Shown piece after piece: positions 3,949 to 37,967 of a DNA stretch of 64,000 nt. The DNA is from Apostichopus japonicus. Taxonomy: Eukaryota; Echinodermata; Holothuroidea; Aspidochirotida; Stichopodidae. Numbering within the stretch: position 1 is the first letter of the stretch; every line of letters begins with the position of its first letter. Location: positions 12,300,484 through 12,364,483 of the forward strand of contig NC_092564.1 in NCBI RefSeq assembly GCF_037975245.1, in the 5' to 3' direction. Under the pieces are notes generated by a model. The model saw only the letters and a program-made list of their open reading frames with translations, was not told the DNA's origin and ran no database searches. The translations under genes were made by a program, and so were the position numbers.

Positions 3949-4022
3949 TTTTAACGTCACCAAAATGGCCTTATTTTTGTGTTTTACTGCGTGTCTTTTA
4001 CTATCAGCCGTTCTAACAGAGG
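3949..4022 (+). CDS. Gene 1 exon 1: 5' UTR end, start codon and signal peptide
   Basis: Coding starts at ATG 3965, in the context ACCAAAATGG. It encodes 19 residues from MALFLCF to VLTE, a textbook hydrophobic signal peptide, plus the first base of codon 20. The donor is GAGG|GTAAGT at 4023. Bases 3921-3948 are a pyrimidine tract ending CCTGTAG, so the exon itself probably begins at 3949 behind an upstream 5' UTR intron. Confidence 0.72.
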
Positions 4023-37000: not shown

Positions 37001-37967
37001 TTTAGAAGAAATGTCTACGGATGCAAGGCAAAGAGTTATCGAGGTGAGCTAGAAATATTAGAGGCAGAGGCTGGGGAGGGGTGGGAGGGGTGGGAGGGTG
37101 GGAGTGGAGTAATCACAATAACACCATTCACTTGAGCCCAACCCACCCCACCCCACACCACCCCAATCCCTCCCTAAGACTCGTTTATGTTTATTATGCT
37201 GATATACTCATTTAAAACCAATTCTACACACGCACACAAATGAAACCTTGAATTTTCGTTGTCTGTAAAATAAAACTATTTTTTGTCCGTAACAATAACA
37301 ATCAGGGCAAGGAACTGCTCATTTCTATAAATAGAAGAGGAGACTGTTTTTTTTTCAAGTAAATATGTGACAATGACTTAAATCTCATATAATTATGTAA
37401 TGAAGAGCATAAAGAACGAAACACATTGGTCCAACTACTACCGGTTTCATAGCTTGTTCAGTTGTTGATATGAATAAATATTACATCTATCTCTTTGTGT
37501 TCACCATGCTCATTAACCTGTCTGTATTCTGTGCTTGTTTTTGTCCCTTCTGTTACTGTTACTTGTCATTCAGCCTTTGAAGAAGATCCGGCTAGGATCG
37601 AAACGTCAGGCCAACTTACTTTTACACATGAATAAATATTAGATAGAAATTAATTTGATTTACTTTGATTGGAAGTTTGAATGCATTGTGCAATAATCTG
37701 TGATGTCACATGAAGAATACTTAACAATAGTGCATTTTTCTTTATATTTGAAACTAATTACATGACTATATTAAATATATATATCTGAAGATTTGATAAA
37801 GCATGTGTAAAGCATTTCTAAAGCATCATATTTCGTAACAACTGTTATAAATCATGTTTGTATTTATAAGAAGTTAGCAGTGATTTTCTAGGACTATATA
37901 TATTTTCTTCATCAGATTAATTCTTTTTCCTTTACAGACAATTTTCAAAGCCTTAAATGAGAAATAA
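3965..37967 (+). CDS. Gene 1: secreted four-cysteine, amidated peptide precursor (neuropeptide-like), six coding exons
   Basis: Join 3965-4022, 19457-19480, 27779-27844, 31342-31412, 36939-37043, 37938-37967: 354 bases, 117 residues plus stop, all phases matching. Residues 1-20 are a hydrophobic signal peptide. RR at 26-27 can serve as an N-terminal convertase site. Residues 28-51 form the cysteine core with C31, C35, C43 and C46 (C-x3-C-x6-C-x2-C), followed by RRPTF and then G52-K53-R54, a classic amidation and cleavage signal. The predicted product is a 24-residue peptide with two disulfides and a C-terminal Phe-amide. Residues 55-117 are an acidic/helical propeptide with a lone C88. Architecture and length suit a neuropeptide or peptide-hormone precursor. 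I do not recognise the family: the spacing differs from orexin, calcitonin, vasotocin, somatostatin, insulin and eclosion hormone. RR at 47-48 could also be cut. The 24-base exon 2 is the weakest part; skipping it keeps the frame but removes the RR site. An AATAAA lies at 38375. Confidence 0.68.
5705..5748. promoter_or_regulatory. Pair of CRE-like TGACGTCA sites in intron 1
   Basis: Two perfect octamers at 5705-5712 and 5741-5748, 36 bases apart, about 1.7 kb inside intron 1 of gene 1. A pair this close could be an intronic enhancer bound by CREB/ATF-type factors. This rests only on the motif. Confidence 0.3.
8175..8387. repeat. Short tandem repeat, 3.3 copies, CT-rich spacers
   Basis: A core GTTCTCTCGACGATAATGTA (with variants) recurs at about 8175, 8256, 8315 and 8369. 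It is followed each time by AAATGAG..CATG and a (CT)n-rich spacer of variable length, so units differ (81, 59, 54 bases). Lies inside intron 1 of gene 1. Confidence 0.75.
8632..8694 (+). repeat. G-rich low-complexity tract
   Basis: Repeated GGGGTGGGGT runs followed by GGGGAAGGGGCGG give more than four G-runs of three or more within 30 bases. This meets the usual sequence criterion for a possible G-quadruplex on the + (sense) strand of intron 1. Confidence 0.6.
9319..9394. repeat. (TA)n microsatellite
   Basis: Alternating TA with one phase break near 9365. The apparent (IY)n reading frames on both strands come from this tract. Confidence 0.95.
11285..11351. repeat. (TA)n microsatellite
   Basis: Uninterrupted alternating TA, 67 bases, in intron 1 of gene 1. 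Confidence 0.95.
12239..12480. repeat. Large compound (TA)n palindrome
   Basis: 242 bases of almost pure A/T. ATATAACTAATATATAAATA near 12284 is mirrored by TATTTATATATTAGTTATAT near 12442, and internal TTTATA/TATAAA interruptions are also arranged symmetrically. The tract is therefore an inverted repeat that could fold into a long hairpin or cruciform, rather than a simple microsatellite. Confidence 0.85.
12655..12960. repeat. C-rich polypyrimidine low-complexity region
   Basis: Two blocks of CCCTCC/CCCACC-type sequence (about 12655-12775 and 12860-12960). They produce spurious Pro/Ser-rich reading frames. Nothing suggests a gene. Confidence 0.7.
15141..15194. repeat. (TA)n microsatellite
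   Basis: Uninterrupted TA alternation in intron 1 of gene 1. Confidence 0.93.
15572..15784. repeat. Imperfect (TA)n region
   Basis: About 210 bases of TA repeats broken by short GTATA/CATA interruptions; source of a spurious tyrosine/isoleucine-rich frame on the minus strand. Confidence 0.9.
19457..19480 (+). CDS. Gene 1 exon 2: 24-base microexon adding a dibasic site
   Basis: The acceptor is a T/A-rich tract ending TATTTTAG at 19456. The exon completes codon 20 as Ala and adds SSAGDRR plus one base. The donor GAG|GTTTGG is weak. It starts and ends in phase 1, exactly matching exons 1 and 3, and supplies an RR cleavage site immediately before the cysteine core, which argues for it being real. 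Without it, exon 1 joins exon 3 in frame and the peptide would start just after the signal peptide. Confidence 0.5.
21795..22082. repeat. Left subterminal array of TCAGTCTA/TAGACTGA motifs
   Basis: More than a dozen copies of the octamer TAGACTGA or its complement TCAGTCTA, with slight variants and in both orientations, spaced 10 to 40 bases apart. The same motif recurs at the right end of the element at about 26505-26690. Confidence 0.8.
22665..22767. mobile_element. Small (103 bp) MITE nested in the larger element
   Basis: The left end CAGTGGTGTCGCCA and right end TGGCAACACCACTG are inverted copies with one mismatch. The CAGTG start resembles hAT-type termini. I could not find a precise 8-base target duplication, so the superfamily is uncertain. 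Confidence 0.6.
25195..26030. repeat. Tandem repeat, about 263-base unit, three copies
   Basis: Units begin TAGCTTCATGCTGTAATGGC at 25195, 25456 and 25721. Each unit has an AT-rich first half and a GC-richer second half. The second half itself contains repeated GCCCGACGATCGGGTACATA-like modules; the third unit has extra modules. The array lies within the 4.9 kb inverted-repeat element. Confidence 0.88.
26505..26700. repeat. Right subterminal array of the 4.9 kb element
   Basis: Repeated GACTGAA / CAGTCTAA motifs as at the left end, followed by the right terminal inverted repeat at 26688-26700. Confidence 0.75.
27779..27844 (+). CDS. Gene 1 exon 3: four-cysteine core
   Basis: Strong acceptor (CCCCCTTTTTCATTCTAG) and donor (CCAA|GTAAGC). 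Completes codon 28 (Ala), then encodes [12 protein letters not shown] and GACIYCRRP, ending one base into the next codon. All four core cysteines (residues 31, 35, 43, 46) lie in this one exon. Confidence 0.72.
27845..31341 (+). other. Gene 1 intron 3 (3.5 kb)
   Basis: Phase-1 intron, AT-rich, with one TGACGTCA at 28287, a G18-like run near 30650 and a cluster of AAAGAGTGA/TCACTCTTT inverted motifs at about 30879-30985. No exon seen. Confidence 0.55.
31342..31412 (+). CDS. Gene 1 exon 4: Phe-Gly-Lys-Arg processing site and spacer
   Basis: Acceptor CTTTTTTTTAG, donor GAG|GTGAGT. Completes Thr50, then encodes F51-G52-K53-R54, the amidation plus cleavage signal, and the spacer [19 protein letters not shown]. 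Ends in phase 0. The fit of FGKR in exactly the expected place after the cysteine core is the main support for the gene model. Confidence 0.72.
32793..32893. repeat. (TA)n microsatellite
   Basis: About 100 bases of uninterrupted TA alternation in intron 4 of gene 1. Confidence 0.95.
34140..34382. repeat. Degenerate tandem repeat, about 64-base unit, 3.7 copies
   Basis: Units start near 34148, 34215, 34280 and 34344 with GAAAGACATTTA-like sequence. They continue with GAGAGTATGGTCTG, a TGTGGCAAAC-like block and TACACTA. Copies are about 70-80 percent alike by eye. Confidence 0.8.
35275..35708. mobile_element. 434 bp hAT-like MITE
   Basis: Ends CAGGGGGTAGGA and TCCTACCCCCTG are exact inverted copies. 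The flanks CTTACCTT (left) and CTACCTTG (right) look like an 8-base target duplication that has lost one T, which fits hAT-type insertion. Internal GGGGGGCAC / GTGCCCCCCC blocks extend the inverted homology. It encodes no transposase. Confidence 0.7.
36534..36695. repeat. (TA)n microsatellite
   Basis: About 160 bases of TA with a single GTA interruption near 36582, ending 240 bases upstream of exon 5 of gene 1. Confidence 0.95.
36939..37043 (+). CDS. Gene 1 exon 5: C-terminal propeptide
   Basis: Acceptor CCATTTTTAG, donor GAG|GTGAGC; phase 0 at both ends, 35 codons. Encodes [15 protein letters not shown] followed by an amphipathic helix-like stretch containing [15 protein letters not shown]. 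It holds the single unpaired cysteine C88, which could pair two precursors or be reduced. Immediately downstream in the intron is a G-run tract. Confidence 0.66.
37071..37106 (+). repeat. G-run tract next to the exon 5 donor
   Basis: Six or more GGG/GGGG runs begin 28 bases after the donor. A matching C-rich tract at about 37138-37171 (CCCACCCCACCCC) could pair with it in the transcript, or the G-runs could form a quadruplex. Confidence 0.6.
37484..37627 (+). mobile_element. Short 144 bp insertion with hammerhead-like core
   Basis: Flanked by a perfect 14-base direct repeat ATGAATAAATATTA (37470-37483 and 37628-37641), so it looks like a retroposed insertion. Its 3' part contains TTGAAGA, a GATCC..GGATC stem, then GAAAC-GTC, flanked by GCCT and AGGC. 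This order matches a type I hammerhead ribozyme with minimal stem III, as carried by Penelope-like elements, but with the first core C changed to U. No coding sequence. Confidence 0.5.
37938..37967 (+). CDS. Gene 1 exon 6: last nine residues and stop
   Basis: Acceptor TTCCTTTACAG. Encodes TIFKALNEK then TAA at 37965-37967. Phase 0 continues exon 5 exactly, extending its helical propeptide. Confidence 0.66.
   Translation, partial: TIFKALNEK

Follow-up and report, generated by a model that had tools for sequence, protein, structure and literature searches.

The peptides of the bombesin, endothelin, CCHamide and elevenin types are relatives of one another and have closely related receptors (PMC5627052, PMC12002301). 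In echinoderm bombesin-type genes, the peptide lies beside the signal peptide and the coding sequence is interrupted by 3 introns, the first of phase 1 and located inside the peptide, the other 2 of phase 0; in Asterias rubens, the peptide, ArBN, is EPRRNYNRVFGPTY-NH2 and its precursor, ArBNP, is 102 amino acids (aa) long (PMC12002301). The same account lists 11 bombesin-receptor-like proteins in the starfish and homologues of these in further echinoderms; ArBNR1 is activated by ArBN, 2 other tested receptors were unresponsive, and the authors propose other ligands (PMC12002301). Here we describe a gene from the sea cucumber Apostichopus japonicus which invites comparison with this group. It lies in a 64,000-nucleotide stretch (contig NC_092564.1, positions 12,300,484 to 12,364,483 of the forward strand; hereafter the window) and consists of 5 short coding exons on the + strand, dispersed over 34 kb, which join in compatible frames into a precursor of 109 residues, predicted to be secreted and containing a peptide with 4 cysteines followed by a G-KR amidation site. 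The existence of this gene is supported by its exon structure and by chance controls, whereas its kinship with the bombesin-type genes is less certain.

A predicted five-exon gene for a secreted four-cysteine peptide precursor

Translation combined with splice-site analysis yielded coding exons of 58, 66, 71, 105, and 30 bp (Table 1). The precursor opens with a predicted signal peptide of 20 residues, directly followed by a 23-residue peptide with the cysteine spacing C-x3-C-x7-C-x2-C and the C-terminal end CRRPTF, which after splicing runs into G44-K45-R46 and a 63-residue tail. The coding introns have, in order, phases 1 (before the peptide), 1 (inside the peptide, in the codon of its penultimate residue, T42), 0, and 0. 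Coding exon 1 is hydrophobic and is the sole exon to pass the start-exon filter in the window (1 on the + strand and 0 on the − strand); its ATG has A at −3 and G at +4, and T18 and A20 occupy the −3 and −1 positions of the predicted signal peptidase site, in agreement with the −3/−1 rule. Coding exons 3 and 4 have 1 open frame each, the 2 frames agreeing, and the F43-G44-K45-R46 site falls in the sole open frame of coding exon 3, whereas coding exon 4 has the highest codon score of all 5. The acceptor at 3948/3949 suggests an intron in the 5′ untranslated region (UTR), and a non-coding first exon may thus lie upstream.

Table 1. Transcript features of the peptide precursor gene. Splice sites are ranked among the 3516 GT and 3198 AG dinucleotides of the + strand of the window, using generic metazoan weight matrices.
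Feature	Position	Strand	Details
Probable 5′ UTR end	3949..3964	+	Behind acceptor AG 3947-3948, rank 38/3198
Coding exon 1: ATG, signal peptide, first base of next codon	3965..4022	+	Ends in phase 1; donor AGG/GTAAGT, rank 6/3516
Coding exon 2: cysteine peptide, 21 residues	27779..27844	+	Phase 1 at both ends; acceptor rank 10/3198, donor rank 38/3516
Coding exon 3: (T)F-G-K-R amidation/cleavage site and 19 residues	31342..31412	+	Acceptor rank 13/3198, donor rank 2/3516
Coding exon 4: 35 residues	36939..37043	+	Phase 0 at both ends; acceptor rank 101/3198, donor rank 3/3516
Coding exon 5: TIFKALNEK and stop (37965-37967)	37938..37967	+	Acceptor rank 16/3198
Poly(A)-signal-like hexamers	37963, 38371, 38375; more at 38661, 39095, 39100	+	First 3 lie within 37963..38380

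The outline of this gene had been proposed from the letters of the window alone (the sequence-only reading), and the secreted precursor, the signal peptide on the exon starting at ATG 3965, the four-cysteine peptide and the TF-GKR amidation signal were all recovered in our analysis. Other elements of that proposal had to be revised: it counted 6 phase-perfect exons and 117 residues, placed an RR before the cysteine core and gave the middle cysteine spacing as x6, whereas we find 5 frame-compatible exons, 109 residues and a spacing of x7. The sixth exon, second in the proposed order, was given no coordinates; we took it to be 15907..15933 on the + strand (VRRFTYTLK), since this segment supplies an RR and, when joined, brings the precursor to 118 residues. 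Its acceptor scores −2.06 (rank 594/3198) and its donor ranks 109/3516, so that the splice sites do not support it; it is one of 2 phase-1 cassette candidates of this low quality in an interval of 23.6 kb that offers no better one, and is at most a weak, optional cassette exon. Once it is dropped, no RR precedes the cysteine core: the joint between coding exons 1 and 2 reads TEA/GYC and leads from the signal peptide straight into the cysteine peptide.

The sequence-only reading also considered it improbable that these elements line up by chance, and our controls agree with that judgement. We defined a chain as a signal exon, an exon which lifts the number of cysteines behind the signal peptide to at least 4, and an exon that has G-[KR]-[KR] close to its beginning. 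The window contains exactly 1 such chain on the + strand and none on the − strand, whereas none was found on either strand when the window was simulated 300 times by a fourth-order Markov model or when 228 kb of genomic sequence on its flanks was scanned. When the thresholds were relaxed, a chain appeared in 1 of 100 simulations (one strand scanned), the 209.5-kb downstream part of the flanks still had none, and the real window gained a second chain by way of the same first 2 exons. As the definition of the chain was set after the gene had been seen, these null figures overstate the case somewhat. Codons for G-[KR]-[KR] begin at only 44 of 63991 + strand positions.

An apparently single-copy gene and its predicted product

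Searches for relatives of the precursor returned little beyond the gene itself. No match to a Pfam or NCBIfam family was obtained at E values up to 10, the Protein Data Bank (PDB) matches to LIM proteins and to ALO3 were at chance level, with no match to endothelin, and Rfam had 0 matches in the window. In the genome (671.6 Mb, 35 contigs), which was searched exon by exon with the best candidates scored, so that very diverged paralogues could escape, 4 matches to the precursor were found at E values up to 10; all 4 are its own exons, and the gene thus appears to be single copy. Similarly, when the window and 26 further loci, 27 stretches in all, were searched by tblastn, only its own exons came up at E < 0.2. 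A − strand look-alike of part of the precursor tail, LLEEMSSMNKESREQIVKYL (44560-44619), has no splice acceptor by eye and is probably due to chance. We could not find the peptide described in the publications searched: none matched its letters or its spacing pattern in a text search, which depends on spelling and covers sequences written out as text, and topic searches brought up no description of it either.

The locus probably represents a single-copy gene for the precursor of a secreted, amidated neuropeptide (peptide hormone) with 2 disulfides. The exons and the protein are read in the DNA, and the processing steps that follow are modelled on established prohormone biology. Signal peptidase would cleave after A20, the 4 cysteines of the peptide would form 2 disulfides, a prohormone convertase and a carboxypeptidase would act at K45-R46, and the amidating enzyme would convert G44 to an amide, leaving a PTF-amide end. 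Convertases dislike a proline after a dibasic site; the RR within the peptide, which is followed by proline, is therefore probably spared, making the 23-mer the likeliest product, with the 63-residue tail presumably serving as a spacer. The calculated monoisotopic mass is 2630.11 Da for the 23-mer amide with 2 disulfides and 2701.15 Da for a 24-mer beginning at A20. After release, the amidated PTF end of the peptide may engage a G-protein-coupled receptor, possibly one of the echinoderm bombesin-receptor-like proteins.

Possible kinship with the bombesin/endothelin/CCHamide group

The predicted product resembles echinoderm bombesin-type precursors in several respects. The peptide adjoins the signal peptide and would have an amide end; the last 3 of the 4 introns of the present gene, of phase 1 inside the peptide, 0, and 0, follow the order of the 3 introns there; and the precursor is short, 109 aa versus 102 aa in ArBNP, with a predicted PTF-amide in the place of the PTY-amide of ArBN. 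Taken together, the phases of the introns, the position next to the signal peptide and an end of the P-T-aromatic-amide type suggest that the peptide may have branched off, in a lineage-specific manner, from the bombesin/endothelin/CCHamide-type superfamily, an assignment that we consider possible but tentative. Several differences count against it. The phase-1 intron that separates the signal peptide from the peptide is extra in comparison with the bombesin-type genes, the 4 cysteines have no counterpart in ArBN, and of the echinoderm bombesin consensus, N-terminal PRXN and C-terminal RIFGPXX-amide, only the P at −3 and the amide recur here; moreover, a different bombesin-type peptide, with a GXLM-amide end, is known from A. 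japonicus (PMC12002301). Given the deviation from the consensus save for one proline, the extra intron and that other peptide, the resemblance is best treated as a lead rather than as evidence of membership.

Among the peptides of this superfamily, the one that the cysteines recall is endothelin, which in vertebrates has 4 cysteines, 7 residues between the second and the third, spacings of x1 and x3 for the first and the last pair, and an aromatic C-terminus. The peptide described here likewise has 4 cysteines, x7 between the second and the third and an aromatic C-terminus, but its first and last spacings are x3 and x2. It also differs in the G-KR amidation site, endothelins not being amidated (PMC5627052). 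With the echinoderm CCHamide-like precursors (Arnp25; Ajnp25 in A. japonicus), the gene shares a predicted amidated cyclic peptide right behind the signal peptide, followed by a dibasic site (PMC6586643, PMC5627052). However, CCHamide/GGNG-type peptides have 2 cysteines forming one ring (PMC5627052) in contrast to 4, and Ajnp25 is a precursor of 147 aa with 3 coding exons (PMC6586643), as opposed to 109 aa and 5 coding exons. A more far-reaching scenario is that of a four-cysteine, amidated superfamily member whose gene has kept the bombesin intron pattern and acquired, by way of a separate exon, a two-disulfide core, the peptide being the ligand of an orphan echinoderm bombesin-receptor-like protein; such a peptide would be, to our knowledge, the first outside chordates, and we regard this scenario as unlikely.

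Alternatively, the peptide may belong to an unrelated, holothurian-specific family of amidated two-disulfide peptides, its intron pattern and PTF end being coincidental, an explanation to which we give nearly an even chance. It accords with the lack of a sequence relative in Pfam, NCBIfam and the same genome and with the chance-level PDB matches, the same results which leave standing the suggestion of a new family in the sequence-only reading. Furthermore, 2 crinoid candidates, AnjapPCNP6 and AmedPCNP7, are likewise amidated and have 4 cysteines, a comparison made by description, and as they are unrelated to each other according to the authors, such peptides can arise repeatedly (PMC9793003). 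Coincidence would, however, have to account for the joint agreement with the echinoderm bombesin-type genes and ArBN in the phase and position of 3 introns, the length of the precursor, the place of the peptide and the P-T-aromatic amide, a resemblance that also qualifies the suggestion of a new family.

Evidence for and against the cysteine exon

Several observations weigh against the gene model as a whole or against its key exon. Coding exon 2 is open in all 3 frames, and a codon score, simple and trained on a small sample of 10 stretches, favours another frame over the one used (+2.2 versus −3.3 bits, 5.5 apart). By the same measure, the frame used scores −2.5, below zero, in coding exon 1, and −4.5 (stop included) in coding exon 5, where it is not the best frame. 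The precursor tail contains one unpaired cysteine. Finally, the precursor is unlisted in a nerve-ring study (PMC6586643), which speaks mildly against strong expression in that tissue. Cysteine-rich peptides score poorly on codon measures by nature. An AlphaFold model of 30 contiguous residues (coding exon 2 with intron read-through) had a mean predicted local distance difference test score of 63 and was uninformative.

The 3 open frames and the codon score raise the possibility that coding exon 2 does not belong to this transcript or is translated differently, in one of its other frames. Coding exon 1 and the exons from 31342 to 37967 would then encode a different secreted protein, and the cysteine peptide would be a chance reading. 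The frame-0 reading of the exon (22 residues) fits neither coding exon 1 nor the open frame of coding exon 3, and a genome search with the alternative frame returned the exon itself alone. The exon itself has strong splice sites; in the interval from 4100 to 31250 it scores highest of 3 open phase-1 exons, and it is the best phase-1 bridge between coding exons 1 and 3 in 27 kb; coding exon 3 opens with F-G-K-R, a sequence most easily understood as following a peptide; and only 1.2% of random open 22-codon stretches on the + strand (1379 of 111501) hold at least 4 cysteines. We therefore consider a chance origin of the cysteine peptide improbable.

If the gene is accepted, its product could still be a secreted defence (antimicrobial) peptide, being small, basic and disulfide-rich, and amidation is found in antimicrobial peptides too. 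Such a role appears quite improbable, given that no paralogues were found and that the layout of the precursor is of the echinoderm neuropeptide type.

Comparison with other neuropeptide families of echinoderms

Echinoderm prolactin-releasing-peptide (PrRP)-type precursors share with the present one a peptide beside the signal peptide, an F-amide end and a phase-1 intron in the peptide; the starfish precursor, of 108 aa, comprises a signal peptide of 19 aa and a peptide of 23 residues (C-terminal glycine counted), and an sNPF/PrRP-type receptor has been reported in A. japonicus (PMC7314547), the neuropeptide table of which has no PrRP row (PMC6586643). The starfish peptide was without a match in this genome, a weak result as the search had no positive control. 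Nevertheless, it is very improbable that the gene is a strongly diverged PrRP-type ortholog encoding the missing ligand of that receptor, considering that the peptide ends in TF-amide and not in RF- or RY-amide, that ArPrRP is without cysteine and the family without a cysteine core, and that the C-terminal region, uninterrupted in the echinoderm genes, is split here by 2 phase-0 introns (PMC7314547).

In NPY/NPF-type genes, an intron lies between bases 2 and 3 of the arginine codon of RF or RY (PMC7314547), whereas the present phase-1 intron interrupts a threonine codon. Luqin-type precursors have 2 cysteines approximately 10 residues apart in the C-terminal region and, in deuterostomes, RW-amide (PMC5940834), unlike the TF-amide and single tail cysteine found here. 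The A. japonicus orexin AjOX1 is also an amidated, disulfide-rich peptide following the signal peptide, but has 6 cysteines with another spacing (PMC6586643); it matches the genome at 37 of 37 residues on contig C23, not C4, which marks the source as A. japonicus or an extremely close form, and a second, weak match on C23 has 36% identity.

The neuropeptide catalogue of A. japonicus, obtained in 2019 by screening a nerve-ring transcriptome with a signal-peptide/dibasic-site predictor, reports 44 precursors, 43 of which have table rows with lengths, the TRH-type precursor being without one (PMC6586643). Compared by length only, none of the 43 tabulated precursors has 109 or 118 aa, and the sole row with 5 coding exons, Ajnp18, is a precursor of 121 aa with 8 cysteines (PMC6586643). 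This miss is not decisive, because the table lacks a bombesin-type row too, even though such a precursor was later reported in A. japonicus (PMC6586643, PMC12002301). Indeed, only 20 of the 44 proteins had been annotated in an earlier genome paper, indicating that such genes are easily missed (PMC6586643).

Genomic neighbourhood

The tail-to-tail neighbour of the precursor gene, on the − strand at 46018-57224, is a ZIP4/ZIP12-type zinc transporter gene, with 3 open reading frames matching Pfam Zip (PF02535), of which one falls short of the curated cut-off, and 2 matching ZIP4_domain weakly. The long first coding intron of the precursor gene contains tandem copies of an approximately 265-bp unit (25275-25855), and a long GAGGA-type pentanucleotide tandem array, several frames of which are open as RRGEE/LLSSP repeats, occupies 1949-2411. 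A dispersed repeat found on both strands covers parts of 52348-52783, 57414-57626, and 61494-62030, where the translation GGASPPVKNMEGRKYHSAPPP...KPLF..NEKKISF recurs, as noticed by eye in the list of open reading frames.

Implications

A neuropeptide catalogue of A. japonicus has been published, yet its table contains no entry of this precursor's length (PMC6586643), and short exons spread over 34 kb make a gene of the kind that prediction tends to miss. The peptide is a candidate for receptor matching, given that only one of the starfish bombesin-receptor-like proteins has a known ligand (PMC12002301). If its membership in the bombesin/endothelin group were true, the peptide would bear on whether bridged, endothelin-like ligands predate chordates.

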